Assembly (NCBI GenBank): GCA_041545745.1
Contig: CP168152.1
Coordinates: 2,416,001 to 2,480,000 of the forward strand
DNA length: 64,000 nt
Direction: 5' to 3'
Origin: Stenotrophomonas indicatrix
GTDB taxonomy: Bacteria > Pseudomonadota > Gammaproteobacteria > Xanthomonadales > Xanthomonadaceae
The notes under the pieces are model-generated. The model worked only from the letters and a program-made list of their open reading frames with translations. It had not been told where the DNA came from and did not search any database. Made by a program: the position numbers and the translations under genes. Positions 34,134-64,000 of this stretch are shown piece after piece. Position 1 is the first letter of the stretch, and each line of letters opens with the position of its first letter.

Positions 34134-34463
34134 TCAACGCCGTGAATGCAGCACGGTGCGCTGGCGCATGGCGTTGAATTCCTGTTCGACCTGCAGGATG
34201 TCTTCGACCTGGAAGCCGGCGGCATCCAGCAGCTGATCGGCGGCAGCGGCAGCCAGCGGATCATCGTCGCGCTGGCGCCAGCAGCGTGCCGGCAGGAAAT
34301 AGCCGACCTCGCTGCGCCCGCGCATGATGACGACCGGGCGCCCTGCATACAACAGGAATTCGGCCAAGTGCTGGCGCAGTCCCTCCACCGAGACATAGGC
34401 CGGCCCGATGCCCAGTGTCTGCGCGGCGGGCTCGGAACTCTCGAACAGCTTGCGACGGCTCAT
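34134..34463 (-). CDS. Orphan Phd-like protein (PhdA-type)
   Basis: 109 residues. AYVSVEGLRQHLAEFLLYAG then RPVVIMRGRSEVGYFLPA follows the Phd/YefM dimerisation pattern, with a basic N-terminus. There is no toxin gene on either side. A Phd-family gene, phdA, occurs in P. aeruginosa between the large TpsA and TpsB genes (PA0690-PA0692, from memory), so this copy is likely its counterpart and marks the same gene neighbourhood. Function is unproven; it may be a DNA-binding regulator of the cluster. Confidence 0.72.
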   Translation of the reverse strand: MSRRKLFESSEPAAQTLGIGPAYVSVEGLRQHLAEFLLYAGRPVVIMRGRSEVGYFLPARCWRQRDDDPLAAAAADQLLDAAGFQVEDILQVEQEFNAMRQRTVLHSRR

Positions 34464-34560
34464 CCACTCCTCCTTTGTGCAACGCGTGGTCTTCCTTCCC
34501 TAGACGGGCGCGTCGCCGCGCCCCCGCCACACGTGTCGTGACTGCGATCACGCTGTCCGA

Positions 34561-36303
34561 TCAGAAACCGGTATTGAACTCCAGCTGGAACACGTCGATC
34601 GACAACGGCGGGCCCGACACTTCCTTGGCCGCCATCCACTTGCCGCTGATCCAGCTGCGCGCATCCAGCGCATAGGCGCCGCCGACGTAGTAGCCGCGCG
34701 CATTGGTACCACCCAGGTGGAAGTTCGGATCGTTGTAAGCGTCGGGCAGTGCATCGGCCTCGATCCGCTTGTAGCCCAGCAGGGCCTGCCACTGGCCCTT
34801 CTCCTTCAGCTCGGTGGCGCCGAAAGTGGCCTGCAGCATCCAGGCGGTGTCGCCGCTGCGGAAGGTATCGATGCTGGCACTGCCACCGGCGCCGTAGTTG
34901 TTGACGATGCCGTTGTTGGCCCGGGTGAACATGGCCTGCTTGTCATAGGCCAGGTTGCGGATGTAGTCCGCGTCCAGGCGCATGCCGATATCCTGCGCAA
35001 GCTGTGTATCCCAGCGCAGGTTGAAAGTCGCCAGGCGGAATGCCGAGGCCAGGCCCACGTACTGCGGCGTGGGCGTGTTGGCCGGATCCAGCGGATTGCG
35101 GGCGATGTCGCGGATCAGCATCAGGGTGTTGCCCTTCTGCATGAACGCCGGCCGCGACCAGTCGGTATCGCAACCGACCGCACCTGCGTATAGCGCGCAC
35201 GGCGACGACAGGCGGCCGCTGATGTTCTTGAAATCGTAGTAGCCCAGCGCTGCACGCAGGCTGTTGTCATCGTTGAAGCGCCAGTTCACCCCCACCTGTG
35301 CACCGGACAGCCACTTGTTCTCGTTGGGCGTCTTCACCCGGCTCTGGCTGGGAGCGCTGTCGGAGGTGTACTCCAACGGCACCACCGCCAGGTTGCCGAA
35401 CAGGCCGACGTCGTCAGCGATGTCGTACCTGAGATTGGCCGCCAGGCCATCGAAGTTCAGGTCGTTGGAGAACAGCGTGTCGCTGGTCCAGAACGGATTG
35501 CCGAAGCGTCCGCCACGCACCGTTACCCAGTCGGCCGGGCTGTAGGCCAGCCATGCCTGGTCCAGCCACACGTCCTTCTTGCCCAGGCCGCCGCCAAGCT
35601 GTTCGGTGGTGGACACCGGCCCGTTGCTGCTGCCGCTGGCCAGGCGCACGCCTGCGGTGGTGTGCTCGCCGATCATCGCTTCGATGCCCAGCCGTGCACG
35701 GATGCGCCACAGGTTGCGGCGATCCTGGCGGGTGTTGAGCAGCGGCGGCAGCTGCAGGTTGGTGTTGTTGTTGGTATCGAAACCGCTGCCGGCATTCACC
35801 GAGGCCCAGTTGGTTTCGATGTCGCTGTTGCGCTCGGAGTAGAAGCGCGACTCGCTGCGCACACGCATGTCACCGGTGACCTTGATGCGCTTGGTCCACT
35901 CGGCCACTTCGTTCGGCGCGGCCCAGCCCTCGGCTTTGGCCTGCGCCATCACGTCCTGGCGTACTTCATCGCGGATGCCATCACGCACGCTCTGCGGCAC
36001 GTACGGCACACGCACGTCGCCCGCTTCCAGCGCCACGCCGCCGCTGCTGCTGGCTGTACTGCCCGCAGTGCTGCGCTGCGCAGCCGCCGCCTCTGCTTCA
36101 GCCTGTACCAGCAGCGCCTGGCCGTCTTCGGGCTTGAGCGCGCCACTGGCGATCAGGCCCCTGATCAGCTTGACCATCGTGGTTTCGGCAGCCATTGCAC
36201 TGGCCGGCACGGCCAGGCTGAGCAGTACGGCGCAGCACAGCAGCGCCCGTCGGGCCGGCCGCGGGCGGTGGGATGCGGTTCGAGCGCGGTCGTGGTCGTT
36301 CAT
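34561..36303 (-). CDS. Putative outer-membrane porin with N-terminal coiled coil
   Basis: 580 residues from the ATG at 36303, which has a GAGAA element upstream; ATGs at 36315 and 36342 are alternatives. A signal peptide (ending AMAA) is followed by a helical, Glu/Ala-rich stretch (GQALLVQAEAEAAAAQR) and then a long beta-barrel of alternating polar/apolar strands ending VFQLEFNTGF. This fits the putative-porin family found with TonB/ExbBD genes. It ends the six-gene minus-strand run TpsB-ExbB-ExbD-TonB-porin. The N-terminal helix may trimerise. Its role beside a two-partner system is not known. Confidence 0.82.
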   Translation of the reverse strand: MNDHDRARTASHRPRPARRALLCCAVLLSLAVPASAMAAETTMVKLIRGLIASGALKPEDGQALLVQAEAEAAAAQRSTAGSTASSSGGVALEAGDVRVPYVPQSVRDGIRDEVRQDVMAQAKAEGWAAPNEVAEWTKRIKVTGDMRVRSESRFYSERNSDIETNWASVNAGSGFDTNNNTNLQLPPLLNTRQDRRNLWRIRARLGIEAMIGEHTTAGVRLASGSSNGPVSTTEQLGGGLGKKDVWLDQAWLAYSPADWVTVRGGRFGNPFWTSDTLFSNDLNFDGLAANLRYDIADDVGLFGNLAVVPLEYTSDSAPSQSRVKTPNENKWLSGAQVGVNWRFNDDNSLRAALGYYDFKNISGRLSSPCALYAGAVGCDTDWSRPAFMQKGNTLMLIRDIARNPLDPANTPTPQYVGLASAFRLATFNLRWDTQLAQDIGMRLDADYIRNLAYDKQAMFTRANNGIVNNYGAGGSASIDTFRSGDTAWMLQATFGATELKEKGQWQALLGYKRIEADALPDAYNDPNFHLGGTNARGYYVGGAYALDARSWISGKWMAAKEVSGPPLSIDVFQLEFNTGF

Positions 36304-36345: not shown

Positions 36346-37044
36346 TCAAGCGCCGGGGCGGCGCCCCTGGATCAGCACACGCGCGGGAAAATCCAGCGAC
36401 GCCGGTGGCATCTGGTCGACTTTGCCGATCTGCCGCAGCGCATCGAGCACGGCCACGTCGGCCTCTTCGTTGCCGCTGCCACGCACCAGCTCGACCTTCT
36501 CCAGCCGGCCATCGGGCGCCAGCCAGACATTCACCTGCAGCTGGAACGCCAGGCGCTTGACCCGCGCATCGCGCGAAATCGCCTGCTGCATCAGATAGCC
36601 CAGGTAGCGGCCATAGCTGGCGTTGCCGGCACCGCCGCGGCCAACGCCGGACGAGCCACCGCCGCTGCCCGACTGGATGCCGAAGTTGTCACCACCGGCC
36701 TGTGCATCGGCGTCCATGGTTACCGGGTCGGCGTTGTCCGGCGTCGGCGTCGGCTCTTCGGCAGGCGTGGGCTGGTCCAGCGGTTCCGGCTCAGGCACGG
36801 TCTCTTCCGGCGGCGTTTCCGGCTGGGGTGGTTTTTCCGGTGGCGGCGGTGGCGGTGGTGGAGGTGGCAACGCCAGCATCGGCGGCTGCACCACCGGCCG
36901 GCGCGTGCTGGCGGTGTCCTTGAACAACAGCCACCACACGGCAGTACCCAGTACCAGCAGCGCCGCCAGCACCAGCGCGATCGTCACCAGCAACTGGCGT
37001 CCGCGCGTTCCAGGCTCCTGCAGGGGCGGTCGATGGCCGGCCAT
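36346..37044 (-). CDS. TonB-family energy transducer
   Basis: 232 residues. One TM helix (about 17-40) follows a basic N-terminus, then a long periplasmic Pro/Glu segment with a run of ten prolines (about 60-69), and a TonB C-terminal-like fold (about 150-230: LQVNVWLAPDGRLEKVELVRGSGN, PARVLIQGR). It should span the periplasm and transmit ExbB/ExbD energy to an outer-membrane partner. It starts 3 bp after exbD ends, so it is in the same operon. The likely client is the adjacent porin or TpsB, since no TonB receptor is close. Confidence 0.88.
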   Translation of the reverse strand: MAGHRPPLQEPGTRGRQLLVTIALVLAALLVLGTAVWWLLFKDTASTRRPVVQPPMLALPPPPPPPPPPEKPPQPETPPEETVPEPEPLDQPTPAEEPTPTPDNADPVTMDADAQAGGDNFGIQSGSGGGSSGVGRGGAGNASYGRYLGYLMQQAISRDARVKRLAFQLQVNVWLAPDGRLEKVELVRGSGNEEADVAVLDALRQIGKVDQMPPASLDFPARVLIQGRRPGA

Positions 37045-37047
37045 GAC

Positions 37048-37461
37048 TCAGCCCTGCGCCTTGCCGGTGACCAGGCCGACCTGGGCCAGCTCCAGCCGCC
37101 GCAGCAGGTCCAGCACCTCGACCACACGCGCGTACTGCACCTGCGCATCACCGCGCACGATCACCGGGAAATCCGGCGAGGTTGCCCGTTCGGTACGCAG
37201 GCGGTCCTCCAGCTCGGCCATCGTCACCGGGTACGCATCCAGGAACACCTGGCCGCTGGGGTCGATGGTGATCGCCTTGGTCTTGGGCTTCTCCAGTGCG
37301 GTGCTGTTGCTGGCCTTCGGCAGGTTGACCTCGATGCCGGGAATGGAGGCGTTGCTGGTCAGGATGAAGATCACCAGCACCACCAGCAGCACGTCGACGA
37401 AGGGCGTCACGTTGATGCCCTTCTCGCGCTTCTTGATGCCGAACTTCGCCTTGTAGGCCAT
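37048..37461 (-). CDS. exbD: ExbD-type biopolymer transport protein
   Basis: 137 residues. A single TM helix (about 19-36: TPFVDVLLVVLVIFILTS) contains the conserved Asp23 required for proton-driven energisation in ExbD/TolR. The remaining periplasmic domain matches the family. Gene order TpsB-ExbB-ExbD-TonB suggests a dedicated proton channel for this locus rather than the housekeeping TonB complex. Confidence 0.93.
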   Translation of the reverse strand: MAYKAKFGIKKREKGINVTPFVDVLLVVLVIFILTSNASIPGIEVNLPKASNSTALEKPKTKAITIDPSGQVFLDAYPVTMAELEDRLRTERATSPDFPVIVRGDAQVQYARVVEVLDLLRRLELAQVGLVTGKAQG

Positions 37462-37470
37462 GGCCGTCCC

Positions 37471-39255
37471 TCAGCCCTGGACCGCGGCCGGGCCGCGCCC
37501 GTCCTGCTCTTCGGCCAGGCGGGCGGCGAACTCGTCGATGAACACCGCCATGTCGGCGCCGATCGCTTCGGCGCGTGCCCCCAGCCAGTTGTAGCCGAAC
37601 AGCGCCGGAATCGCGACGCCGAGGCCGGCGGCCGTACACAGCAGCGCTGCGGCCATGCCCGGGGCCACCGAGTTGATGTCCACCGCACCGGCCATCGCCG
37701 CGACCACGAACACCAGCATGATGCCGATCACGGTGCCGAACAGACCCACATACGGCGCGCCCTCGATGGTGGTCGACAGCCAGTTCATGCGCCGCGCCAT
37801 CGCTTCCTGTTCGCGCACCATCACCGCGTCCATCGACGCGCGGATGGCGGCGATGGTGGCCGCGCTCAGATAGCCGGAGTTGCCGTCGCGCTGATGGCGC
37901 TGCTGCATTTCATCGATGGCCACCTGGTAGATGCGCCAAAGCGAGCCGTCGTGCATCGCCGTCGGCACCTTGCCCTGCCGGTCCATCTCGGACAAGGTGC
38001 GCAGCGGCACGCCGGAGAGCTTGCTGAAGCTCTCGGTGAACACCGCATTGGCCTTGCTGGTGCGGCCGAAATGACGGCTCTTGGCGATCATGATCGCCCA
38101 CGACAACAGCATCATCAGGCCGAGGATGGCCACCACCACCCAGGCGTCGAACGGCATCGCCCTGAGGATGAAGGCGAAGTGGCTCTGCCCGGCCGACTGC
38201 TCGTCGGCGCCGTAGCTGATCAGGCGCGAGTCGGCGCCCTGCGCGGTGGCATCGGCCAGCAGCAGCGCCGCTGGGCGCGCCACGCGTGAGATCCGCAGTT
38301 CATCCAGCGCACCATCGAAGTTGGCCAGCGGCTGCGTCGCACCCGGTGCGTCGGCACCCACCACCGCAGCGGTTGTCAGTGCCGGCAATTCACCACTGAG
38401 TTGGGCCACCACGCGGCCGTTCAGATACAACTGCAGCGACCCCTTCTCGGCGCTAAGCGCGAGATGCGCCCACTGCCCTTCCGGGATCGGTTGCGCCGGC
38501 GTGCTGCGCTGACCGTTGAGCTGCACGAACGGCACGCGGTTGTCGATACCCAGCACCAGCTCGGCGGTGCCATCGCGGCGGGCGTAGATCGCCTGCGCGG
38601 TGGTCAGCGCGCCCGGTTTGATCCAGGCAGAAACGGTAAGCGGCGCACCCGCTTCCTGTGCCAGCGACGCACTGGCCGGCAGCGGCAGCGGGCCAGCACC
38701 CAGCTGCACGCCACGCCCGATCACCGTGCTTTCCGCCGCAGGCACTACCGCACCGGCCGTGTTGCCGTAGGCCGTGGTATCACGCGCCGGCGCATTGGCT
38801 TCGGCAAAGTGGTAGACCAGCGTGTAGTCCGGATCGAACACCTGCTGGCCATTGCCGCTGGCCGGTGCCTTCGCGTTGCCGTAGTACATCCAGATCGTCT
38901 GCGGCGCGCTGGCGGTCAGTGCCGGAACGTCCACCCAGACCAGTGCGAGGCCCAGGTTCGGGTCGAACTGCTCGATCTGATGGGCCAGCACGGTGCGACC
39001 GTCGGCAGAAACGAAACGCAGGTCGTTGCCACCGTCCTGGGTGCCATCAAAGCCGAAGTTTCCGGTATGCAGGCGCAGCAGCAGCGGTGTACGCCCGGGA
39101 TTGCCGGCCAACCCCGCACCCTGTGGACCGGCGTCGACGGTGATGGGCTTGCGGTACTTCCATTCGGCCTGCCACCAGTTGGCATCGGCCGCGGCGGCGG
39201 GCAGCGCGATCAGCGCAGCCAGCAGCAGCAACATTCGGGAAAGCAGACGGTCCAT
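37471..39255 (-). CDS. ExbB/TolQ fused to DUF2341 and LamG-like domains
   Basis: 594 residues from the ATG at 39255. Signal peptide 1-23; residues about 30-135 are DUF2341-like (EWKYRKPITVD, NDLRFVSADG, IWMYYGNAKA); about 145-335 are a LamG/concanavalin-like jelly roll (FDGALDELRISRVAR). A TM at 370-390 then starts an ExbB/TolQ/MotA domain (TIEGAPYVGLFGTVIGIMLVF, CTAAGLGVAIPALFGYNWL). A normal ExbB is about 230 residues, so the periplasmic N-terminal half is an addition that may bind a carbohydrate or partner protein. The other Ton genes lie directly downstream. Confidence 0.9.
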   Translation of the reverse strand: MDRLLSRMLLLLAALIALPAAAADANWWQAEWKYRKPITVDAGPQGAGLAGNPGRTPLLLRLHTGNFGFDGTQDGGNDLRFVSADGRTVLAHQIEQFDPNLGLALVWVDVPALTASAPQTIWMYYGNAKAPASGNGQQVFDPDYTLVYHFAEANAPARDTTAYGNTAGAVVPAAESTVIGRGVQLGAGPLPLPASASLAQEAGAPLTVSAWIKPGALTTAQAIYARRDGTAELVLGIDNRVPFVQLNGQRSTPAQPIPEGQWAHLALSAEKGSLQLYLNGRVVAQLSGELPALTTAAVVGADAPGATQPLANFDGALDELRISRVARPAALLLADATAQGADSRLISYGADEQSAGQSHFAFILRAMPFDAWVVVAILGLMMLLSWAIMIAKSRHFGRTSKANAVFTESFSKLSGVPLRTLSEMDRQGKVPTAMHDGSLWRIYQVAIDEMQQRHQRDGNSGYLSAATIAAIRASMDAVMVREQEAMARRMNWLSTTIEGAPYVGLFGTVIGIMLVFVVAAMAGAVDINSVAPGMAAALLCTAAGLGVAIPALFGYNWLGARAEAIGADMAVFIDEFAARLAEEQDGRGPAAVQG

Positions 39256-39292
39256 GCAAAAGGTCTCCGGAGAACGCATCTCAAGGGAAGGG

Positions 39293-40924
39293 TCAGTAGC
39301 TGGTGCTGATGTTGAAATGCAGGCGCGGGTCGTCCTTGCGCGTGACCGGGCCGTCGGCGTAGGGCCAGGCGTAGTCCAGGCGCAGCTGCAGGTGTTCGCC
39401 CAGGCGCAGCTGAGCGCCCAGCCCGACCGACGCCAGGTTGTACTTGTCGCGCTGTTCCGGCAGCGGCTGACGCAGGCGCAGGTAGGCCGCGTCGGCGAAG
39501 CTGTACAGCCGCAGGTCGGTACCGCTCCACAGCGACCACGCCGGGGTGCGCCATTCCAGGTTGGCCAGGCCACCGTAGTCGCCGATCGCTTCGGCCGAGA
39601 GGTAGCCACGCACGGTGTACATGCCACCGGCGGCGAACTGTTCGGCCGAGACCAGCGGCGCATCGGTCGCCTGCAGCGAGCCACGCGCATACCACTGCCA
39701 ATCGTTGCCGAAGGTGTGCGTATTGGAGACATCCGCCTTGAACGCTACGAAGCTCGGGTCGGCCCAGTAGCGCTTCTGACCGAAATCAGTGGCGTTGCTG
39801 CCATAGCCGAACAGACGCCGGGTTCCGGCCACCAGCTGCGTGTTGATGCTCAGCTGATCGTTCTCGCCCTGGCGCACCCCGACGAAGGCCAGGGTGATCG
39901 GCGCGTACTTCAACGGCGTCTTCAGGCTGTCCTTGCCCATCTGCGTGTCTTCTTCGGTGTCCTTGAAGTCCACGCCGAGGCTGAGCTGGCGCCACCACGG
40001 GCTGCTGCCGGTCAGGCGGTAGTTGAGCTTGAGGCCAATGGAATGACCGTTGCCGATCACATTGGTGCCGGTGCCGGTGCCTGCGCCACCTTGTCCGCCG
40101 GCATTGAGTACGCGACTGTCGGATTTGTAGCCCGATGCTTCAAGGCTCCACGGCGTGCCTTCAAAGGGCATCGTGTACGAGGCCGAGAACACCTTCGCCT
40201 GTTTGGTATCTTCCGGCGCAAGGTACACGCCGATGTTGGCGCTGTGCCCGCGCTTCCACAGGTTGTCGTGGGCCAGCGATGCACTCAGGCGCAGCTTCTC
40301 GGTATCGGCGCTGTGGTCGTTGTTGAGCGCCGCACTGGCACGCCAGGGTGACTTCTCTTCCACCTGCAGGTCCACATCCATGGTGCCCGGCACCTGGCCT
40401 TCGCGCACCAGCGGCAGCACCTGGCGGCGGCCACCTTCGTTCATTGCAGTCAGTTCCCTCTGTGCCTGGTCGAAGTCGGGCACCCGCCCCTCGGCCAACG
40501 CCGGTACCCGTTCGCGGATGCGTTCGGGTGACTCATGGCGGGCACCGACCACGCGCAGCTGGCCAATCGGCGTCTGCTGCACCTTCAGCAGCACCACACC
40601 CGCATTGACCTGCTGTTCGGGCAGCTCCACATAGACCGATTGATAGCCGGCCTGCTGATACAGCGCGTTGACTGCATCACGCGCTTTTTCGACATCGGCG
40701 AGCGTCTTGCCGGGGCCGAGGAACGGTTCGACCGCACGTTCGATCTGACGCGCATCGAGCACGGTATTGCCGCGCACGATGTACTCGTTGATGTTCACCG
40801 TGGGCGCTGGCGCGGCGTCCTGCGCGAGCACTGGAAATGGCAACGACGCCAGGGCCAGCAGCAAGGGATGCAGGCGCAGCGGGAGGCGAACGGCACGGCA
40901 CGGAACGGGAGTCATCGAAGGCAT
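39293..40924 (-). CDS. TpsB two-partner secretion transporter (FhaC/ShlB family)
   Basis: 543 residues. Signal peptide (ending VLAQ), a POTRA_2 domain (about 42-115: NEYIVRGNTVLDARQIERAVEPFLG), a second POTRA (about 118-195) and a 16-strand barrel (about 205-543) with the lid-loop motif VRGY. The last residue is aromatic. TpsB proteins secrete one large TpsA through this pore. The partner is surely the 4132-residue protein encoded 3 kb away, since it has a TPS domain. It is the first gene of the minus-strand operon and has a Pho-box-like sequence 77 bp upstream. Related to PdtB of P. aeruginosa, from memory. Confidence 0.92.
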   Translation of the reverse strand: MPSMTPVPCRAVRLPLRLHPLLLALASLPFPVLAQDAAPAPTVNINEYIVRGNTVLDARQIERAVEPFLGPGKTLADVEKARDAVNALYQQAGYQSVYVELPEQQVNAGVVLLKVQQTPIGQLRVVGARHESPERIRERVPALAEGRVPDFDQAQRELTAMNEGGRRQVLPLVREGQVPGTMDVDLQVEEKSPWRASAALNNDHSADTEKLRLSASLAHDNLWKRGHSANIGVYLAPEDTKQAKVFSASYTMPFEGTPWSLEASGYKSDSRVLNAGGQGGAGTGTGTNVIGNGHSIGLKLNYRLTGSSPWWRQLSLGVDFKDTEEDTQMGKDSLKTPLKYAPITLAFVGVRQGENDQLSINTQLVAGTRRLFGYGSNATDFGQKRYWADPSFVAFKADVSNTHTFGNDWQWYARGSLQATDAPLVSAEQFAAGGMYTVRGYLSAEAIGDYGGLANLEWRTPAWSLWSGTDLRLYSFADAAYLRLRQPLPEQRDKYNLASVGLGAQLRLGEHLQLRLDYAWPYADGPVTRKDDPRLHFNISTSY

Positions 40925-41000: not shown

Positions 41001-41018
41001 CCAACAGTTTTGTGACAG
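41001..41018 (-). promoter_or_regulatory. Pho-box-like sequence upstream of tpsB
   Basis: On the minus strand it reads CTGTCAC-AAAA-CTGTTGG, against the PhoB consensus CTGTCAT-N4-CTGTCAT. Both halves and the 4-base spacer fit, with 11 of 14 consensus bases matching. It lies 77 bp upstream of the TpsB ATG. Phosphate control would suit a T2SS/DING cluster. Confidence 0.5.
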
Positions 41019-41461: not shown

Positions 41462-41938
41462 TCAGCGCCGCCCCACTGCGGCAGGAACAATGCCATCGGT
41501 GGGCAGCGGCGGCAGTTCGGGCACGGGCAGCGAACGCGGCTGCCCCGCCTGCTGCAGTTCCACCGTGTTGGCGCTGATTGCGGCCAATACGGTGGATGGC
41601 CCCAGACGCTGGCCCGGCACATAGGCCTGGGCAGGTGCTCCATCCACCGACAGCAACGCCAGCGGCGCCTGCCGCCCGGCCATCACCCCCAGCACGGTCA
41701 CGTCAGTCTGTACTGCACCGGGCGAAAGCAGCCGTACCAGCGGCGCGCTCGCTGCGCCGTCGAAGGCCGGGGCAGCGGGCGGGGCAACCTGCACTGCGGC
41801 GGCGGCAACGTGAGCCGGCACCATGAACAGGGCCATGCCCCAGTATGCCGCCACGGCCAGCAGCAGCGCCGCCGCCAGCAGGGTCAACATGCGATTGCGA
41901 TCCCAGCGCCTGCCGTCCATGTTCCGCACCTCCGCCAT
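41462..41938 (-). CDS. gspC: Short GspC-like type II secretion protein
   Basis: 158 residues from the ATG at 41938 (an ATG at 41920 and a longer frame to 41995 are alternatives). One TM helix (about 20-38) precedes a Pro/Ala linker and an HR-like domain (VTVLGVMAGRQAPLALLSVDGAPAQAYVPGQRL...TVLAAISANTVEL). GspC links the inner-membrane platform to the secretin. The protein ends after the HR domain and lacks the PDZ or coiled-coil domain of full GspC proteins (about 270 residues). It is divergent from gspHIJ. Confidence 0.75.
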   Translation of the reverse strand: MAEVRNMDGRRWDRNRMLTLLAAALLLAVAAYWGMALFMVPAHVAAAAVQVAPPAAPAFDGAASAPLVRLLSPGAVQTDVTVLGVMAGRQAPLALLSVDGAPAQAYVPGQRLGPSTVLAAISANTVELQQAGQPRSLPVPELPPLPTDGIVPAAVGRR

Positions 41939-42036
41939 GTTCCTGTGCAGCCACGCTAGCAGCCGCCGCTGACGCTTTTGTTTCATCATCCGCACCTACG
42001 CTGGCAGCAATCGGCAAGGACGGGAGGCGATGTCCG

Positions 42037-42483
42037 ATGCAACGCAGACCACGCGGCTTCACCCTGCTTGAACTGATGGTGGTACTGGTCATCATCGGCA
42101 TCTGCACGGCGGGCATCGGCCTTGGCCTTGGCAGCCTGCTCGACCCTGCGCGGCAGCTGCGCCAGGAATCGGAGCGGTTGGCGCAGCGCCTGCAGGTCGC
42201 GCGCGATGAAGCACGCATCGATGGTCGGCCGATCCGCTGGCAGGCCAGCGCAGAAGGCTATCGCTTCAGCCGCCGCGACAGCGAAGGCTGGGTCGAGCTG
42301 CGGCGCGATGACCTGCTGCGCCCCCAGCAGTGGCAGACCCACGGCATGAAAGTGGAGCCGACGGCCGTCATCGAATTGAGCCCCGAATGGATCGGCGTGC
42401 CGTGGGAGCTGACGTTGTCGCTGGACGGTCGTCGGCTGCGTCTTCGTGATGATGGCAGTGGACAATTGCAGGTCATGCAGTGA
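42037..42483 (+). CDS. gspH: GspH minor pseudopilin
   Basis: 148 residues. The prepilin motif RPRG-FTLLEL at the N-terminus is followed by a hydrophobic helix; prepilin peptidase would cleave after Gly. The start at 42037 has GGGAGG ten bases upstream. The remaining domain matches GspH in length and has the usual WELRRDDLL-like strands. Together with GspI and GspJ it forms the tip of the pseudopilus. The next gene overlaps the stop codon. Confidence 0.88.
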   Translation: MQRRPRGFTLLELMVVLVIIGICTAGIGLGLGSLLDPARQLRQESERLAQRLQVARDEARIDGRPIRWQASAEGYRFSRRDSEGWVELRRDDLLRPQQWQTHGMKVEPTAVIELSPEWIGVPWELTLSLDGRRLRLRDDGSGQLQVMQ

Positions 42484-56455: not shown

Positions 56456-57646
56456 TTACAGCGGACGGCCGATGCCCGCGCAGGTGCTCGGGTTGTTCAC
56501 GGCACCGGCATTGGTAGCGGTCGCGAAGCGGGTGCGGACCGCATCACGCCAGGCCTTGGTCAGCGGGATGAACTTGTGCGCGCGGATCGCGGCATCGTTC
56601 GGGCCCTGCTCGACGCCGGCGACCACGACACTGCCGTAATGGCGGGTCAGGAAGCCACGCACGTTGGCGCCGACAGTGGCGTTCTTGTAGCACTGGCCGA
56701 ACACGAAGTTGGTGTAGCCAGCGATCGGGTAGCCCGCGCTCGGGTTGCCGAACACCGGCACCCAGTTGGCCGGATTCTCAGCGGCGGTACCGGTCGGCGG
56801 AGCAGCAGTTTCCAGGGTCGCTTGCACGCTCACTTCATCCGGCGAGAAGCCCTTGACCTTGGCGACCTTGGTGGCGTCGGTCAGGCTCGGGATCACGTCC
56901 GGGCCGACGTAGCCGATACGGCCATCGGCAGCGTACACGGCGTTGTACACCGAGGTACCGCCGGTGGCCGGGGCAGCGACGAAGTTCGACGGAACCGTGG
57001 TGAACAGGTTGGTGAAGGTCGACTGCACCGAGAAGGCCGGCACGCCGTTGGTCAGCTTCAGCGTGGTGCCGGAAACGTCGGCCGGCTGGCAGGCGCTGGT
57101 CAGGAAGCGGGCCAGCAGTTCGCTGGTGCCGCTGCTCTCGCCGCGGTAGACCACCTGGATGGTGCCGGTACGGGCGCTGTCGATGCTCGACCAGTTGGTG
57201 ATCTTGCCTGAGAAGATGCCGCAGATCTGGGTGACCGAAAGATCAACCGCCGAACCGGCCTTGTTGAACGGAATCGTGACCGAGGTGGCCACCGACGGGA
57301 TCTGCACCAGGGCGCCATAGCGGTTGACGTCACCGGCCACGTTATAGGTGCTGTTGTAGGTGCTCAGCTCGGTGCCGCTCAACACCGAGTCGCTGCCAGC
57401 GAAATGCACGGTGCCGGTAGCCGAGAACAGCGCCGAGTTGTTTTCCAGGAAGGCCTTCTTGCCGGTGCCCGAACCGGTCACAGCGTAGCTGAAGTTGGCC
57501 GGCAGGATGCTGTCGGTCTGGCCCTTGTAGAGGTCGGCCGGCAGCGAGGCGCCGCCGCCGGTGACTGCGGTCTGGGCCGAAGCGGCACCGGCAGTGGCGA
57601 GCAGCGCGGTGGCAACCAGCGCGGCCAGAGTCTTGTACTTGGTCAT
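56456..57646 (-). CDS. DING-family PstS-like phosphate-binding protein
   Basis: 396 residues with a signal peptide (1-24, ending ASAQ). The mature start TAVTGGGASLPADLYKGQTDS and the blocks HFAGSDSVLSGTELSTY, SVATSVTIPFNKAG and VYRGESSGTSELLARF are those of DING phosphate-binding proteins; the name-giving DING has become AVTG. Phosphate contacts lie in the Ser/Thr-rich loops. In P. aeruginosa a DING protein is exported by the Hxc T2SS, as I recall; here it sits upstream of tpsA and downstream of gspF. It is probably a T2SS substrate and phosphate scavenger. Confidence 0.88.
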   Translation of the reverse strand: MTKYKTLAALVATALLATAGAASAQTAVTGGGASLPADLYKGQTDSILPANFSYAVTGSGTGKKAFLENNSALFSATGTVHFAGSDSVLSGTELSTYNSTYNVAGDVNRYGALVQIPSVATSVTIPFNKAGSAVDLSVTQICGIFSGKITNWSSIDSARTGTIQVVYRGESSGTSELLARFLTSACQPADVSGTTLKLTNGVPAFSVQSTFTNLFTTVPSNFVAAPATGGTSVYNAVYAADGRIGYVGPDVIPSLTDATKVAKVKGFSPDEVSVQATLETAAPPTGTAAENPANWVPVFGNPSAGYPIAGYTNFVFGQCYKNATVGANVRGFLTRHYGSVVVAGVEQGPNDAAIRAHKFIPLTKAWRDAVRTRFATATNAGAVNNPSTCAGIGRPL

Positions 57647-57872: not shown

Positions 57873-59072
57873 TCATTGCACCAGCTGGTTCATTTCCATG
57901 ATCGGCATCAGCACGGCCAGCACGATGGTCAGCACCACGCCCCCCATCACCAGGATCATCGTTGGCTCCAGCAATGCAGTGAGTGCCATCGCGCGGCGTT
58001 CGATCTCGCGCGAGATGGTCTGTGCAGCGCGGTCGAGCAACGGTGCCAATGAGCCGGTCTTCTCGCCACTGGCCACCAGGTGCACCAGGATCGGCGGATA
58101 CACTTTCTGCACCTTCAGCGCAGCGCCAAGCGAAGTACCTTCGCGCACGCGTGCGGCCACATCGTCGGCACAGCGCGCCAGCAGCGCGTTGCCCAGTGTC
58201 TGTCGTGCGGCGTCCAGCGCGCGCAGCAAGGGCACGCCGGAATCCAGCAGGATCGCCAGTGTCGATGCGAAGCGAGCACTGTTCACGCCCAGCACGAAAC
58301 GGCCCACCATCGGCACGCGCAACAACAGGCTGTCCCAGCGCAGGCGAAGATCCGGCCGCCGCAGTGCCAACCGCCAACCCACCACCAGCGCGCCGATGCC
58401 CAATCCCGTCCATGCGCCCCATGCGCGTACGAACGCACTGGCGGCCAGCATCACCTGGGTCAGCATCGGCAGCGTCTGCCGCGCCTGCACGAATGCCGTC
58501 ACTACCTGGGGCACCACGTAGCTGAGCAGGAAGATCACGATCGCCACCGACACCAGGCTGATCGCTGCCGGGTAGATGAACGCCGTCAGCACCTTCGCCT
58601 GCAACGCGTTGCGCTCTTCGATGTAGTCGGCCAGGCGCTCCATCACCCGTGCCAGGTCGCCGGAATCCTCGCCGGCACCGACCAACGCACGATAGATCGC
58701 GGGAAAGTCGCGCGGCCGCGCCGCCAGCGCTACGGTCAACCGCTGGCCGGCGCGCACATCGGCACGCACCGCCGTGAGTGCCTGCGCAACGTGCGGGCGT
58801 TCGGCCTGTTCGATCACCGCGCTCAATGCGCTTTCCAGCGGCAGGCTGGCGGCCAGCAGGCTGGCCAGTTGCCGCGTGGCCCAGGCCAGTTCGCTGGCCG
58901 ATAGTCTGCGCGTGCCCCAGCCACTGCCGGCATTGCGTGCGGCTGACACCTGTACCGGTGTCAGCCCACGCCCACGCAGTTGCTGGCGCACGCCGCGCGC
59001 GTTGTCGGCGTCCAGCTGTCCCTTCTCGATGCGCCCCTGTGCGTTGGCGGCCTGGTAGTCGAACAGTGCCAT
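57873..59072 (-). CDS. gspF: GspF inner-membrane platform protein
   Basis: 399 residues from the ATG at 59072 (GAGG upstream), giving the usual start MALFDYQAANAQGRIEKG; a frame to 59090 is possible but atypical. Two cytoplasmic four-helix T2SSF domains (about 75-190 and 280-390) flank TM helices near 170-190, 220-240 and 375-395. It recruits the GspE ATPase for pseudopilus growth. Seven bp separate it from gspE; last gene of the L-M-D-E-F run. Confidence 0.93.
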   Translation of the reverse strand: MALFDYQAANAQGRIEKGQLDADNARGVRQQLRGRGLTPVQVSAARNAGSGWGTRRLSASELAWATRQLASLLAASLPLESALSAVIEQAERPHVAQALTAVRADVRAGQRLTVALAARPRDFPAIYRALVGAGEDSGDLARVMERLADYIEERNALQAKVLTAFIYPAAISLVSVAIVIFLLSYVVPQVVTAFVQARQTLPMLTQVMLAASAFVRAWGAWTGLGIGALVVGWRLALRRPDLRLRWDSLLLRVPMVGRFVLGVNSARFASTLAILLDSGVPLLRALDAARQTLGNALLARCADDVAARVREGTSLGAALKVQKVYPPILVHLVASGEKTGSLAPLLDRAAQTISREIERRAMALTALLEPTMILVMGGVVLTIVLAVLMPIMEMNQLVQ

Positions 59073-59079
59073 GCGCGCC

Positions 59080-60522
59080 TCAGTCGTCACCGGTCACGCG
59101 CAGGATCTCCTCCAGCGTGGTCACCCCGCTCTCGACCCAGCGCTGCCCGTCCTGGCGCAGGGTGCGCATGCCGGCACGCCGCGCGGCCTCGCGCAGCGCC
59201 GGTTCGCCCTGCCCTTCATGGATCAACGCACGCACGCGCTCATCCACCACGAACAGCTCATGGATGCCGGTGCGCCCACGGTAGCCGCTGTTCGCGCAGG
59301 CGGAGCAGCCTACCGCGCGCCACACGGTGCGGCCCTCGGTATCGAGTTCGGCACGCCGACACTGCAGGCACAGCCTGCGCACCAGCCGCTGCGCCAGCAC
59401 GCCACGCAACGATGAGGCCAGCAGGAAAGGTTCCACGCCCATGTCCGCCAGTCGGGTCACCGCCGAAATCGCATCGTTGGTATGCAGCGATGCCAGCACG
59501 CCGTGACCGGTCAACGACGACTGCACCGCGATCTGCGCCGTTTCCAGGTCACGGATCTCACCGATCATGATGGTGTCCGGATCCTGGCGCAGAATTGCGC
59601 GCAATGCCGTGCCGAAGCTCATGCCGATGCGCGCGTTGACCTGGATCTGGCCGATGCCGGCGAAGTCGTACTCCACCGGATCTTCCACCGTGAGGATGTT
59701 GCTGGTGCTGCTGTCGAGCTGCCCCAGTGCCGCATACAGTGATGTGGTCTTGCCACTGCCGGTAGGCCCGGTGACCAGCACGATGCCGTGCGGCTGGCGG
59801 ATCAACCCGGTGAAGGTGGCCAGGGTGTCGTCGGCCATGCCCAGCCGCTGCAGCTGCAGTCGCCCGGCGTCCTTTTCCAGCAGGCGCAGCACCGCGCGCT
59901 CGCCATGTCCGGTCGGCACCGTGGACACACGGATGTCCAGCGGTCTGCCACCCACGCGGATGGCGATGCGCCCATCCTGCGGCAGGCGCTTCTCCGCGAT
60001 ATCCAGGTGGGCCATGATCTTGATGCGCGATACCAGCGCCGCATGCAGTGCACGCCGTGGCTGTACCATGTCACGCAGGGTGCCGTCGACGCGATAGCGC
60101 ACCACCGAATGCGTTTCGAAGGGTTCGATGTGCAGGTCGCTGGCACCATCACGCGCGGCCTGCGCCAGCAGCGCGTTGATCATGCGGATCACCGGCGCGT
60201 CGTCCTGCGCATCCAGCAGATCGGTCACCTCGGGCATGTCCTGCATCAGCCGGTCGAGATCGACTTCACTTTCGGCCGCGCCGACCACCGCTGCGGCATC
60301 GCCACCGTCACGATACTGTTCGCCCAACCGCTGCTGCCAGACCGCCGCATCCAGCACCTGGAACGGTACTGGCCCGTGCCGGCGGCGCAGCTCGGCCACT
60401 GCCCAGGCGGCGGTCTCGGCGGTCCCCAGCAGTACCGGCGCGCCGCCTGCTTCGGCCAGCATCACCCCGTGGCTGCGCACCCAGGCGTACGGCAGCAATG
60501 GCAACGGCACGGGCATGCTCAT
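59080..60522 (-). CDS. gspE: GspE type II secretion ATPase
   Basis: 480 residues. The RecA-like ATPase has Walker A GPTGSGKTTS, Asp box TVEDPVEYD and Walker B TIMIGEIRDLETA. A zinc-binding tetracysteine block lies near the C-terminus (CLQCRRAELD...VGCSACANSGY), as in T2SS rather than T4P ATPases. The N-terminal GspL-binding domain is short. Cytoplasmic, energises pseudopilus assembly. Overlaps gspD by 4 bp. Confidence 0.95.
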   Translation of the reverse strand: MSMPVPLPLLPYAWVRSHGVMLAEAGGAPVLLGTAETAAWAVAELRRRHGPVPFQVLDAAVWQQRLGEQYRDGGDAAAVVGAAESEVDLDRLMQDMPEVTDLLDAQDDAPVIRMINALLAQAARDGASDLHIEPFETHSVVRYRVDGTLRDMVQPRRALHAALVSRIKIMAHLDIAEKRLPQDGRIAIRVGGRPLDIRVSTVPTGHGERAVLRLLEKDAGRLQLQRLGMADDTLATFTGLIRQPHGIVLVTGPTGSGKTTSLYAALGQLDSSTSNILTVEDPVEYDFAGIGQIQVNARIGMSFGTALRAILRQDPDTIMIGEIRDLETAQIAVQSSLTGHGVLASLHTNDAISAVTRLADMGVEPFLLASSLRGVLAQRLVRRLCLQCRRAELDTEGRTVWRAVGCSACANSGYRGRTGIHELFVVDERVRALIHEGQGEPALREAARRAGMRTLRQDGQRWVESGVTTLEEILRVTGDD

Positions 60523-62894
60523 GGCCCGATGACCAGTTCCGGGGTGTAGCCCAGCCCGCGCAGCTGCTGCAGCGCAGGGTCGAGCGTGGCCGGGTCGCGC
60601 GTGACCCGCACCCGCAGACGCTGTCCCGTTTCGCCCGGCGTGGTCTCGGCATAGGCCTGCAGGCCAAGCGCGCGCACCTGTGCCACGGCCTGGGTCGCAC
60701 GCGCCGCATCCAGCCCCTGCGCGAACTGCACCACCTGCACATTGCCCTCGCTGGCCGGATACAACGCCGCAAGGCTGCCGTTCTGCGGCGGCTGGCCCTG
60801 GCCATCGCGCGCATTGCCCTGGCCAAGCACCGACAGGTCCTGCGGCGGAAGCTGCGGTGCCGACAGCGCCGGCAACGCCCAGCTCTGTACCGGCTGCGCA
60901 GCGGCCTGTGCATTGCGCATGTAGTCGTAGCGGTCGCGGGTCAGGCGCTGTCCGGCGGCCGGGTCGCGCACCACGTGCGGGCGCAGGAACACCATCAGGT
61001 TGGTCTTGGCCCGCTTGCGCGTGTCGCTGCGGAACAGCGCGCCCAGCACCGGAATCTTACCCAGCCCCGGAACAGCATCGCGGCCATGACTGACGCTGTC
61101 TTCCAGCAGGCCACCCAGCACCATGATCTGGCCGTCATCGAGCAGCACGCTGGTATCCAGCGCCCGCTTGTTGGTGATGATGCCGGCGCTGCCCGAGCTC
61201 TGCGCATCGATGCTGCTGACTTCCTGGTAGATGTCCAGCTTCACCGTGCCACCCTCGGAAATCTGCGGGCGCACCCGCAGCTTCAGGCCCACGTCCTCGC
61301 GTTCGATGGTCTGGAACGGGTTGTTGCTGCCACCGCCACCGTCGGTCACATAGCGGCCACTGACGAAGGGCACGGTCTGCCCGACCATGATGCTGGCCGC
61401 CTCGTTGTCCAGCGTCATCAGGTTCGGCGTGGAAAGGATGTTGGCGCCGCCTTTGCTCTGCAGGGCATTGGCCAGCGCTTTCATGTTGAGGATCTGGCCG
61501 ACGCCCGGCAGGTTGATGGTGCCGTCGATCACGCCGATGTTGAGGCCGTCCTTCGGCAGTACATCCAGCGTGGTGCGCGCAGTGGTGCTGATGCCACTAC
61601 CACCGGTGGTGCCGCCGAAATGGGTGCCACCGAACGTGCGGCCGTTGCCCAGCATCCATTGCACGCCCAGTTCAGCGGCATCGGTCTGGTTGACCTCCAC
61701 GATCAGGCTCTCCACCAGCACCTGTGCCCGACGCTGGTCGAGCTGGTCGATCACCCGCCGCAGGTTGCGGTACACCGGCTCCGGGGCGGAAATCAGCAAG
61801 GTGTTGGTGGCGATGTCAGCCTGCACCGAGATGCCGTTCTGGCTGAAACCGCTGCTGCCGGCATCGATCGGATCACGACGACCCGGGTCAAGCCGTGGCG
61901 ATTCCAGCGCATTGCCCTTGCTCTTGCCCTGTGCGGGTTGCGCCGGCGTGCTGGCGTTGCGACTGGTCTCGCCCGGCAATGCGGTGATGCCATCGGTGCT
62001 GCCCATCGCCGGCGCGTCGCTCTGCCCTGCTACCACGCCACGCAGCACCCCGGCCAGCTGGGTGGCCTGGGCATTGCGCAGGTACACCACATGCAGGTTG
62101 CCGGACTCATCCTGGGCCTTGTCCAGCTTCTCCACCAGCTGCCGCGCCAGGCGCGTGCGGCCCGGGCTGCTGGAGCGCAGCAGCACGCTGTTGCTGCGCG
62201 GGTCGGCCATCACCACCACCTTCTGCGCCGGCTCCGCGCCCTGCGCATCCAGCAATGGTGCGACCATCGCCGCCACGTCCACGGCAATGCCCTGCTGCAG
62301 CTTGACCACGTCGGTGTCCATGCCGGCTGGCGTATCCACGCTGGCGATTACCCGCGCGATGCGCTCCAGGTTGTCGGCGTAGTCGGTGATGACCAGCGTG
62401 TTGTTGCCGGGGTTCGCGGTGATCGGATTGTCCGCGGTGATCATCGGCCGCAGCACCGCCACCAGCGCCGCCGCGCTTTCGTAGCGCAGGGCAAACGTGC
62501 GCGTGGCTATCTCGCCTCCCGCACCGCCGGCACCAACGCGCCCGCCCAGCAGCTTGGCATCGGCCTGCGGCACCACCCGGCTGACGCCTCCACTTTCAAC
62601 CACGGCAAAGCCGCGCATGCGCAATGCACCCAGCAGCAGCTGGTAAGCCTGCCCACGGCTGACCGGCCCATCGGAGACAACGGTCATCTTGCCGGTCACC
62701 CGTGGGTCGACCAGGAACTGGCGGCCGGTGAAGCGCGCCGCCATGCGCAGTACCCCGCCGATGTCGGTGTCCACCAGGTTCAGCTGCACCGGTTCGCCAC
62801 TGGCGTCCTGCGCCTGCACCGCTGCCGGAAGATGGGCCAGGCCCACCACCAGTGCCAGTACCGCGCTGCAGCCCAGGCTGCGCATCGCCTTCAT
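60519..62894 (-). CDS. gspD: GspD secretin with a C-terminal SPOR-like domain
   Basis: 791 residues. A signal peptide without lipobox (ending AVQAQ) is followed by N0 (about 32-105), N1-N3 domains and the secretin domain (about 435-650) with VPFVSGRYVTDGG and VGLKLRVRPQISEGG. The last 75 residues (about 717-791) look like a SPOR fold: QVVQFAQGLDAARATQAVAQ, RALGLQAYAE, RLRVRVTRD, LRGLGYTPELV. SPOR domains bind denuded peptidoglycan glycans. This replaces the S-domain/pilotin region usual in secretins. It overlaps gspE and gspM by 4 bp each. Confidence 0.93.
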   Translation of the reverse strand: MKAMRSLGCSAVLALVVGLAHLPAAVQAQDASGEPVQLNLVDTDIGGVLRMAARFTGRQFLVDPRVTGKMTVVSDGPVSRGQAYQLLLGALRMRGFAVVESGGVSRVVPQADAKLLGGRVGAGGAGGEIATRTFALRYESAAALVAVLRPMITADNPITANPGNNTLVITDYADNLERIARVIASVDTPAGMDTDVVKLQQGIAVDVAAMVAPLLDAQGAEPAQKVVVMADPRSNSVLLRSSSPGRTRLARQLVEKLDKAQDESGNLHVVYLRNAQATQLAGVLRGVVAGQSDAPAMGSTDGITALPGETSRNASTPAQPAQGKSKGNALESPRLDPGRRDPIDAGSSGFSQNGISVQADIATNTLLISAPEPVYRNLRRVIDQLDQRRAQVLVESLIVEVNQTDAAELGVQWMLGNGRTFGGTHFGGTTGGSGISTTARTTLDVLPKDGLNIGVIDGTINLPGVGQILNMKALANALQSKGGANILSTPNLMTLDNEAASIMVGQTVPFVSGRYVTDGGGGSNNPFQTIEREDVGLKLRVRPQISEGGTVKLDIYQEVSSIDAQSSGSAGIITNKRALDTSVLLDDGQIMVLGGLLEDSVSHGRDAVPGLGKIPVLGALFRSDTRKRAKTNLMVFLRPHVVRDPAAGQRLTRDRYDYMRNAQAAAQPVQSWALPALSAPQLPPQDLSVLGQGNARDGQGQPPQNGSLAALYPASEGNVQVVQFAQGLDAARATQAVAQVRALGLQAYAETTPGETGQRLRVRVTRDPATLDPALQQLRGLGYTPELVIGP

Positions 62895-63418
62895 GGATGG
62901 CCACCGCCATTGGCGGCCATCACGATGTTTCCGGAAATCCGTGCCGCCGGCATGTTCGCGTCCCCTGTGCGTTGCAGTTGCAGTTGCTGCAGTTCGATGG
63001 CCGGGTCGGCCAGCAAGGGCAGCAGCCAGTTCCAGAGCGCATCGGCGGGCACACTGCGCACCTGCAGGTGCCAGCGCCCGTCACGTGTTTCGATATGCAG
63101 GCTGCCGGCCAGGCCGGCCGCGGTGATCTGTTGGCGCAGCCCGGCAAGCGTCGGCCGCTGGCCCTGCGCCTGCTGCTGTTGTTCACGGGCGCGCAGCAGC
63201 GGCGCAAGTGCCGCCGACTGCGCCTGCAGTCGTGGCAGTTCAGCCTGCCAATGGCTGCGCTGTTTCAGCAGCGGCTGCAGCCAGCCCAGCCACAGTGCAG
63301 CCGCCACTACCGCTGCAGACATCAACAGCAGCATCGCGCGCTCGCGCGCCGCCAATCGCTGCCAACGCTGCTGCAGCCCATTCAGAGAGGCCGCTGGGCG
63401 CAACCCGGCTGCGGTCAC
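62891..63418 (-). CDS. gspM: GspM inner-membrane protein
   Basis: 175 residues: a TM helix (about 28-46: MLLLMSAAVVAAALWLGWLQP), a helical Gln/Arg-rich segment, and a ferredoxin-like periplasmic domain (LHIETRDGRWHLQVRSVPADALWNWLLPLL). Length and pattern match GspM, the GspL partner in the platform. Overlaps gspL and gspD by 4 bp each. Confidence 0.88.
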   Translation of the reverse strand: MTAAGLRPAASLNGLQQRWQRLAARERAMLLLMSAAVVAAALWLGWLQPLLKQRSHWQAELPRLQAQSAALAPLLRAREQQQQAQGQRPTLAGLRQQITAAGLAGSLHIETRDGRWHLQVRSVPADALWNWLLPLLADPAIELQQLQLQRTGDANMPAARISGNIVMAANGGGHP

Positions 63419-64000
63419 GGCGCAGCCCCGCTGCTTATCCGCAACCGGCCACCGGCTTCGCGCGCAAGCTGCAGCCCCTGTGCCTGCGTCGCCTGTTGCC
63501 AGCGCGCCAGCCGTTGCGCGTCCTCGGCCAACGCCTGCGCGTCGGCATCCAGCTCCATCTCCAGCTGACCCGGCTGATAGCGCAGGCTGCGAATCTGGCC
63601 AGCCAGCTCAGGGATGGCCTGCAGCACGCTGGCAACCTGCTGCTGCACGGCAGGAAGCGTCCGTGGCGCTGCCGGCACTGCCAGGGCACGCCGCGCCTGC
63701 AGCACCGGATCGACCACTTCGTGGATCTCGGGGAAGTGCGTGCTGAACTGTTGCGTCATGTCCTGCCGCAAGGCTTCAGCCTCGCCATGCCAGCGCGATA
63801 CCTGCAGTTGCAGACCCAGCGCAGCCAGCACCGTCGCCGCCAACGCAAGACCGATGGCCAGCCGCGGCGCGCCTGCACCCATGGCCGGCAACGGCAGCGA
63901 CCAGCCAGGCAGCGGACCGCTGGATTGCAGCGCCTGCGCCAGCACGCTGGCTGGCAGGCGCTCGGCCCAGGCAGCCGGTACGGCATCGATCCACTGAACC
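63415..64000 (-). CDS. gspL: GspL inner-membrane protein (5' end outside window)
   Basis: At least 195 C-terminal residues are visible; the frame stays open to the window edge. Visible parts: the end of the cytoplasmic domain, a TM helix (RLAIGLALAATVLAALGLQL), and a periplasmic ferredoxin-like domain (IRSLRYQPGQLEMELDADAQALAEDAQRLARWQQAT). GspL docks the GspE ATPase to the membrane and pairs with GspM. gspK or gspG probably lie beyond the edge. Confidence 0.85.
   Translation of the reverse strand, partial: VQWIDAVPAAWAERLPASVLAQALQSSGPLPGWSLPLPAMGAGAPRLAIGLALAATVLAALGLQLQVSRWHGEAEALRQDMTQQFSTHFPEIHEVVDPVLQARRALAVPAAPRTLPAVQQQVASVLQAIPELAGQIRSLRYQPGQLEMELDADAQALAEDAQRLARWQQATQAQGLQLAREAGGRLRISSGAAP

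Follow-up and report, generated by a model that had tools for sequence, protein, structure and literature searches.

How does a two-partner secretion (TPS) system come to be encoded side by side with a proton-driven motor? TpsB transporters are described, in PMC9355242, as secreting without an external energy source. In a 64,000-nucleotide stretch of Stenotrophomonas indicatrix DNA (contig CP168152.1; hereafter the window), a TPS gene pair, Ton-like genes, a porin gene and type II secretion system (T2SS) genes are found together, and an earlier note on this DNA suggested that the Ton complex energises either two-partner secretion or a linked porin. Energising of the TPS is consistent with the sequence-based findings presented below. 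We see about an even chance that the locus represents a distinct TPS class with its own, obligatory proton-driven motor acting at the outer-membrane step, the coupling being what we infer. The giant TpsA, the H1-less TpsB, the DUF2341-LamG motor and the porin are present or absent together.

Domain searches of the window found all of the TPS, Ton and porin genes named in the note, as well as a PstS-like gene. With the exception of the pseudopilin genes gspH, gspI and gspJ (+ strand), all of the named genes lie on the − strand. The TpsB transporter (39293..40924; ShlB and POTRA_2 matches), with two POTRA domains and a barrel, is followed by an ExbB/TolQ-like subunit with a periplasmic DUF2341 and LamG head (37471..39279; PF10102, PF13385 and PF01618), an ExbD/TolR-like subunit (37048..37461; PF02472, 102 bits, and alignment to solved ExbD), a TonB/TolA-like periplasm-spanning protein (36346..37044; TonB_2, 31 bits) and a Porin_5 porin (34561..36303; PF16930, 614 bits). 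The open frame of the ExbB fusion runs from 39732 and overlaps tpsB, and its likely start is near 39279. The TpsA exoprotein (43853..56251) comprises 4132 aa from the start that was chosen, and carries an N-terminal extension (55793..56134; motif type AFSxxWFxxKGA...TGRLPNG) preceding the TPS domain, a C-terminal DUF3739 domain (44129..44461; E 6.8e-42) and a tail motif, VQILGFG (43979..43999).

The pair has the composition of a type Vb system, i.e. a TpsA with a TPS domain and a TpsB with POTRA domains and a ShlB barrel, and the TpsB model (pLDDT 85.7) has CdiB and FhaC as its nearest PDB structures. These features are shared with the canonical FhaB/FhaC and CdiA/CdiB systems, whereas the N-terminal extension and DUF3739 of TpsA, the lack of the H1 plug helix and the motor and porin alongside set the present locus apart. 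TpsA of this class ends in a conserved, strand-like motif of the VxVLGFG type: the motif class occurs within the last 200 aa of all 58 collected sequences (0.11 expected after shuffling). Visual inspection revealed the motif of the N-terminal extension in 24 of 28 sequences of the class; those of L149 and L150 and two of L156 did not show it. Both the model and the sequences indicate that TpsB of this class is devoid of H1. In the model, no helix of at least 4 residues is present between the signal peptide and POTRA1, and in 39 of the 41 class members with an N-terminus POTRA1 begins 4–38 residues past a crudely predicted signal peptide (the other two are short by eye). The N-terminus also looks short in 3 of 41 comparison TpsB proteins, which were hand-picked from strong and weaker matches and are thus a non-random set, POTRA1 being placed by script from a weak extrapolated match in 20 of them and the N-terminus read by eye in 21. 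One of the three (L196) adjoins an ORF for a 1245-aa TpsA, and the 19 kb searched there gave no motor match. The absence of H1 as a mark of motor-linked TpsB only was therefore dropped.

The motor comprises ExbB, ExbD and TonB encoded together, i.e. a Ton system, and all three subunit families of the TonB-ExbB-ExbD and TolA-TolQ-TolR motors are represented, although it differs from both in its DUF2341-LamG head, in the lack of a receptor gene in the module and in scores lying between Ton and Tol. The nearest solved chains of the ExbB fusion are TolQ and then ExbB, while the second subunit is closer to ExbD than to TolR among solved structures. The third subunit passes the TonB_Cterm model (28.7 bits, cut-off 27.1). 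The best NCBIfam matches of the three are TolQ, TolR and TolA, each below its cut-off (133.5 versus 221, 97.2 versus 127.3 and 30.8 versus 59.45 bits, respectively). Domain searches of the window revealed no Plug domain among the proteins of the module. The porin model (pLDDT 74.9) likewise has no plug domain; it shows a barrel of 16 long strands (counted by hand) and a helical periplasmic N-terminal part, with OmpM1 of Veillonella as the best PDB match (TM 0.42 by query and 0.73 by target).

The distribution of the set was examined in 398 Pseudomonadota genomes and in a second sample, which comprised 130 genomes from a single family. In the former, DUF3739 was found in 14 genomes of 7 families and 11 genera, the same 14 carried a full-length Porin_5, and DUF2341 was present in 13 of them and absent from the remaining 384. 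Six genomes with partial Porin_5 matches were counted as lacking the full-length protein: G154 (a single stretch, E 7e-4) and G237, G286, G310, G344 and G356 (about 175–180 of the 535 positions, together with another segment of about 70–115). In the second sample, DUF3739 and DUF2341 occurred in the same 16 genomes, 15 of which had Porin_5. The two missing markers look like assembly gaps, since a contig end truncates the module in G284, and G428 is 70% complete with DUF2341 located 1264 bases from a contig end. The TpsB family as a whole occurs in 177 of the 398 genomes. With the TpsB of the window as a query, strong matches (E ≤ 3e-75, over 90% of the length) were obtained in 13 of the 14 positive genomes, one in each except G155, which has two, with no match in G284. 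The contrast is also visible within genera: G000 has the set and G090 is without all three markers, and the same holds for the presence of the set in G255 and G463 against none in G328 and G322, respectively, and for G428 (porin unseen) against G409. TPS in general occurs without the motor; for example, no motor or porin match was found in the 20 kb around the second TpsB of the present genome. No exact probability is claimed for the co-occurrence, because the sampled genomes are kin, which makes such values meaningless.

The note had also proposed a synteny search, and when this was run the TpsB, DUF2341-ExbB, ExbD, TonB, Porin_5 and DUF3739-TpsA genes proved to be strongly co-conserved. The ExbB fusion was used to fetch 80 loci, the best-scoring of at least 579 relatives, which lean to close relatives (17, L004–L020, are of the Stenotrophomonas group, and several more are from Janthinobacterium, Pandoraea and Variovorax); neighbours were searched in 10-kb flanks with E-value cut-offs of 1e-2 to 1e-8. 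In all of these best 80 loci, TpsB lies directly upstream of the ExbB fusion as measured from the tblastn match, so this adjacency exceeds chance. A lower figure (71/80) from stop-to-stop ExbB frames was rejected, as such frames begin inside tpsB. Porin_5 follows tonB in every one of the 71 loci, among the best 80, with enough contig left. The set stays together though the gene order varies between lineages: it is TpsB-TpsA-ExbB-ExbD-TonB-Porin_5 in G019 and G360, two full sets are present in G155, and in G268 TpsB-Porin_5 and ExbB-ExbD-TonB are located on separate contigs. A search of the flanks of the 80 best-scoring loci with one receptor query gave ORFs longer than 1.5 kb in 4, of which 3 correspond to a FecR-linked receptor; pieces shorter than 1.5 kb, probably of the same receptor, lie where the flanks of L005, L015 and L016 end.

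The T2SS, which the note had placed inside the conserved unit, is not core to it, as T2SS matches were found within the flanks of only 20 of the 80 best-scoring loci (of at least 579 relatives), namely the 17 of the Stenotrophomonas group and 3 of Variovorax. In the window itself, most of the T2SS genes that had been listed were matched: gspF, gspE, gspD, gspM and the C-terminal part of gspL (57873..63945; domain searches), and, among the pseudopilin ORFs (41845..43453), gspH (N_methyl and GspH) and gspI (N_methyl and T2SSI). GspC (41462..41989) stayed just below threshold (PF11356, 26.3 bits, cut-off 27), and GspJ was assigned solely from its N_methyl methylation motif and position. The G and K genes and the remainder of L are located just beyond the right edge of the window (locus L002).

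The Pseudomonas aeruginosa island named in the note is real: phdA, pdtB, exbB2D2 and tonB4 (PA0696-0701) are under one promoter, with hxc and pdtA alongside. Compared by printed gene sets (PMC7035377, PMC4971064), this Hxc/PdtA-PdtB/ExbB2-ExbD2-TonB4/PA0696 island equals the TpsB-ExbB-ExbD-TonB-porin run plus TpsA and T2SS of the window, which differs from it in the T2SS being split around TpsA and in an unconfirmed Phd protein. In G130, the run is followed by YbjN and PpiC genes, near the printed P. aeruginosa order, whereas searches of the Stenotrophomonas-group loci L004–L020 gave no match to YbjN or PpiC. The YbjN, PpiC and VreA-like leads were the sole ones kept, and re-searched, from a de novo neighbour clustering by longest ORF, which was discarded because antisense ORFs of the GC-rich DNA distorted it. 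The conserved neighbourhood was already noted in 2009, and exbB2-exbD2-tonB4 were called uncharacterized in 2020. Mutants in the tpsA, tpsB, tonB and PA0696 genes of P. aeruginosa show wild-type virulence in zebrafish embryos, an assay which reads virulence and not secretion. The P. aeruginosa counterpart is already published; the present analysis adds the co-occurrence counts, the order changes and the finding that the T2SS is not core.

In the mechanism that we propose, the TonB/TolA-like protein would relay proton-motive force from the motor to the outer-membrane step of TpsA export. The motor may open the TpsB pore or return it to its starting state; alternatively, it may act on the periplasmic DUF3739 tail, pulling it or setting it free as translocation ends. 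Porin_5 would be an outer-membrane partner in this export. A need for the motor due to the sheer size of TpsA was set aside, because large CdiA proteins are not known to need one for their export. A more specific version, which we put forward only tentatively, is a proton-powered form of type V secretion in which the TonB/TolA-like arm of the motor would take hold of the DUF3739 tail of TpsA or of the H1-less TpsB and would drive or complete the export and surface anchoring of giant exoproteins, with up to four TpsA proteins in a genome sharing one motor. Ton-linked export of a protein across the outer membrane has a precedent in the Oar-dependent secretion of PopC in Myxococcus xanthus, as described in PMC6434023, but the outer-membrane protein there is a TonB-dependent transporter and here it is TpsB. 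If a powered class is real, the view of TPS as energy-free export would change and the exbB2-exbD2-tonB4 genes of P. aeruginosa would be explained; the set also offers a starting point for work on DUF3739, on the DUF2341 head and on Porin_5.

Porin_5 goes with the motor no less closely than TpsB, so the client of the motor could instead be the porin, and a receptor encoded elsewhere in the genome could also play this role. Surface-located TpsA might capture or free a nutrient (perhaps a phosphorus compound) for import by a motor-powered Porin_5, with the TPS itself unpowered. The constant position of Porin_5 after tonB and its co-occurrence with DUF3739, as tight as that of the motor, favour such uptake, as does haem acquisition by HxuA/HxuB/HxuC, in which a TPS pair works with a Ton-dependent importer; HxuC is, however, a TonB-dependent transporter, and PMC5422565 describes the operon as three genes without a motor. 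We consider uptake unlikely: the modelled porin has the barrel of a porin and periplasmic helices but lacks a plug domain, and the G268 porin gene lies with tpsB, apart from the contig that carries the motor genes. OmpM1, the nearest fold of the porin, is an outer-membrane attachment porin, and this, together with the TolQ, TolR and TolA top matches, would suit a Tol-Pal-like motor and a stalked porin that hold or shape the outer membrane at the exit site with no pulling on TpsB or TpsA. Such a tether is improbable in the light of the TonB_Cterm score of the third subunit and the ExbD-like character of the second.

It is more improbable still that the motor serves a surface circuit (a VreA-like STN protein, FecR and a sigma factor) sensing or controlling TpsA. 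FecR-like genes are indeed present in 34 of the 80 best-scoring loci, and the VreA-like protein combines STN with a sub-threshold TonB C-terminal match, but the other 46 gave no FecR match, a count limited by the 10-kb flanks and contig ends. Finally, the genes might be clustered merely because all respond to phosphate shortage, those of P. aeruginosa being PhoB- and VreI-controlled. Shared regulation of this kind hardly explains the identical presence and absence in 7 families, the altered order, the split in G268 or why the T2SS does not follow the set, and we give it very little credence.

The phosphate-starvation character ascribed to the island is weak in the window. What speaks for it is the PstS-like (DING-like) secreted binding protein (56456..57646; PF12849, 75.7 bits), for which PstS models score below cut-off, and one Pho-box-like site upstream of tpsB (CTGTCAC-AAAA-CTGTTGG, 41001..41018, − strand), which 13 of the 17 Stenotrophomonas-group loci carry at this position in identical or near-identical form, the exceptions being L014, L016, L019 and L020. 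A fixed-consensus scan was not above chance, with 7 sites versus 4.4 expected (12 of 100 shuffles reach 7). The T2SS and the PstS-like gene would be neighbours that may share phosphate control but lie outside the secretion machine; the genome has four secretin matches. The name Phd-like, given in the note to a 109-aa ORF (34134..34463, − strand), is not supported, as neither Pfam (to E = 1) nor NCBIfam gives a match. Relatives of this ORF occur in 18 of the best 80 loci (of at least 579), from Stenotrophomonas (one titled [Pseudomonas] hibiscicola), Luteimonas, Pseudoxanthomonas and Lysobacter.

Domain searches of the window (G000:C1:2416001-2480000), which comes from a genome of 4.66 Mb, bore out the gene list of the earlier note. 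Read from right to left, the minus strand encodes the C-terminal part of GspL, GspM, GspD, GspE and GspF of a type II secretion system (T2SS), a PstS-like protein, a TpsA of 4132 aa, GspC (match marginally below the cut-off), TpsB, an ExbB fusion (DUF2341, LamG and MotA_ExbB), ExbD, TonB, a Porin_5 porin and a small ORF. The plus strand carries the pseudopilin ORFs H, I and J, and GspG, GspK and the remainder of GspL fall beyond the right edge. The name "Phd-like" proposed for the small ORF is unsupported, as this ORF had zero matches in Pfam or NCBIfam. The closest named matches of the ExbB fusion are Stenotrophomonas proteins (S. indicatrix included; 98% identity). Between tpsA and the pseudopilin genes (43459-43699) there are 8 copies of short palindromic GTAG-type repeats (e.g. 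GTAGATCCACGCCATGCGTGGATG), which we take to be a Stenotrophomonas repeat family.

An alignment of the ExbB fusion retrieved at least 579 relatives, of which the best 80 loci were compared. In all 80, TpsB ends 18-207 bases ahead of the ExbB match, and, where sufficient contig was left, ExbD (76/76), TonB (71/71) and Porin_5 (71/71) come next. TpsA was matched in the flanks of 66 of these best 80 loci (56/59 where the locus was at least 20 kb) and FecR in 34. A YbjN-like match (47/80) and a PpiC-type prolyl isomerase (24/80) are almost always located directly after the porin (e.g. L066 14959-16014 and L076 15737-16696), as are the YbjN and PpiC genes in the printed P. aeruginosa map.

Because these loci had been selected by the ExbB fusion, genome samples were drawn without regard to it: 398 Pseudomonadota genomes and 130 genomes from the family to which G255 belongs, which are not fully independent since some genomes (shared positives include G255 and G324) are common to both. 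Among the 398, DUF3739 was present in 14 and full-length Porin_5 in the identical 14 (with partial matches in 6 more); 13 of these and no other genome had DUF2341, whereas 177 had the TpsB family. Each of the 14 DUF2341 places falls within a frame matching the ExbB fusion. In the sole genome missing DUF2341 (G284) the module is broken off by a contig end and a TpsB match is likewise absent; the window's TpsB strongly matched a single protein in each of the other 13, and two in G155. In the second sample, DUF3739 and DUF2341 were found in the identical 16 genomes and Porin_5 in 15 of them, the exception (G428) being 70% complete, with DUF2341 1264 bases from a contig end. DUF2341 is confined to DUF3739-bearing genomes in both samples, and in several genera one genome has the complete set and a second has none of the three markers (DUF3739, Porin_5 and DUF2341). 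The synteny search proposed in the earlier note, run in this way, found co-conservation; the T2SS, which had been placed in the same unit, is matched in just 20 of the best 80 loci and is a lineage-specific neighbour of the module.

Both the gene cluster and the conservation of its neighbourhood have already been published, since in P. aeruginosa phdA, pdtB, exbB2D2, tonB4 and PA0696-PA0701 were placed under one promoter (PMC4971064), and Llamas and co-workers (2009) described PUMA3 clusters of several genera adjoining TPS, ExbBD and PA0696 homologues (PMC2729926). The co-conservation seen here exceeds, in both strength and breadth, what the published accounts consulted describe. In zebrafish embryos, P. 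aeruginosa tpsA, tpsB, tonB and PA0696 mutants equalled the wild type in virulence (PMC2729926). DUF2341 is named merely as an appendage of unknown function in the accessible part of one paper (PMC12505986), and a literature search for DUF3739 gave no paper.

Membership of the module stays while gene order varies, which argues for a working unit and not one held together by shared regulation alone. TpsB, TpsA, ExbB, ExbD, TonB and Porin_5 are consecutive in G019 and G360, and G155 has two full sets. In G268 one contig carries TpsB-Porin_5 next to TpsA and another ExbB-ExbD-TonB. In the second sample, DUF3739 is matched four times in G470 and DUF2341 once; in two further genomes the counts are three and one.

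The TpsB model (pLDDT 85.7) matches the folds of CdiB and FhaC. The TPS transporters described to date have, according to the accessible part of one account, a barrel plugged by helix H1 (PMC9355242). In TpsB proteins of the motor-linked module, a short, mainly Ala/Pro-rich stretch separates signal peptide and POTRA1. By a crude script it measures 4-38 residues in 39 of the 41 non-redundant members whose N-terminus is present; in the other two (L081 and L151) the script put the cleavage site wrongly and the stretch is short by eye. The comparison set comprised 41 other TpsB proteins. Among the 20 picked by script, 18 have 41-59 residues before POTRA1, in many cases including a charged stretch that resembles a helix, while L196 has 13 and L184 gave no value; among the 21 judged by eye, L178 and L183 look short. 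A second TpsB of the source genome (G000:C1:1291673-1293508; L158 7673-9508) has an H1-like charged stretch, and a motor match is absent from the surrounding 20 kb. In G294 (L199 8995-14391) an H1-less TpsB adjoins a 1245-aa TpsA ORF, with zero motor matches in 19 kb; this pair is possibly an unpowered relative for comparison.

In 24 of 28 TpsA sequences of the module, the TPS domain follows an N-terminal extension that bears a motif, as judged by eye and with many close relatives among them; the four without the motif (L149, L150 and two of L156) are from G155 and G200, and one is cut at the start of the fetched stretch. The C-terminal end comprises DUF3739 and a motif resembling V-x-V-L-G-F-G. 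This motif occurs in 58/58 sequences versus 0.11 expected from shuffling, with the pattern written after viewing the sequences, which were gathered by similarity to this same region and include near-duplicates.

"Ton" is a loose label for the motor, because the subunit scores point both to Tol and Ton families. Aligned with solved structures, the ExbB core scores 80 bits with TolQ and 48 bits with ExbB, and the second subunit is closer to ExbD than to TolR; in NCBIfam the three subunits match TolQ, TolR and TolA best, every one under the cut-off, and the third exceeds the cut-off of the TonB C-terminal model (28.7 vs 27.1 bits).

The mechanism proposed here is based on co-occurrence, gene order and domain make-up. 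Proton-motive force would be passed on to the outer-membrane stage of TpsA export, and the part pulled by the motor may be the H1-less TpsB, the DUF3739 tail of TpsA or the periplasmic part of the porin. Oar and PopC provide, in the accessible part of the source, a precedent for Ton-linked protein export (PMC6434023); in the part of the literature covered, no mechanism was found for the exbB/exbD/tonB motor of this module. The strongest rival, by analogy with HxuABC, is that the module may capture a nutrient and take it up through the porin. The Porin_5 model (pLDDT 74.9) has 16 long barrel strands (own count) and periplasmic helices, with no plug domain visible in it. Its fold is closest to that of OmpM1, an outer-membrane attachment porin (TM 0.42 and 0.73 by query and target length, respectively). 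The motor's client could also be a receptor encoded elsewhere in the genome.

The earlier note read the region as a phosphate-starvation island. Phosphate control in the source genome is plausible at most from the sequence, because a Pho-box-like site upstream of tpsB (41001-41018) is also present at the corresponding position in 13 of 17 loci of the Stenotrophomonas group (absent from L014, L016, L019 and L020) but the consensus scan gave 7 sites versus 4.4 expected. Close to the module, a FecR-type anti-sigma gene and an STN-domain TonB-dependent receptor (25265-29649) form a signalling pair. Several loci encode, in the vicinity of FecR and TpsA, a VreA-like protein that has an STN domain and matches the TonB C-terminal model below threshold (L043 17267-18091); this protein might compete with the TonB arm of the motor.
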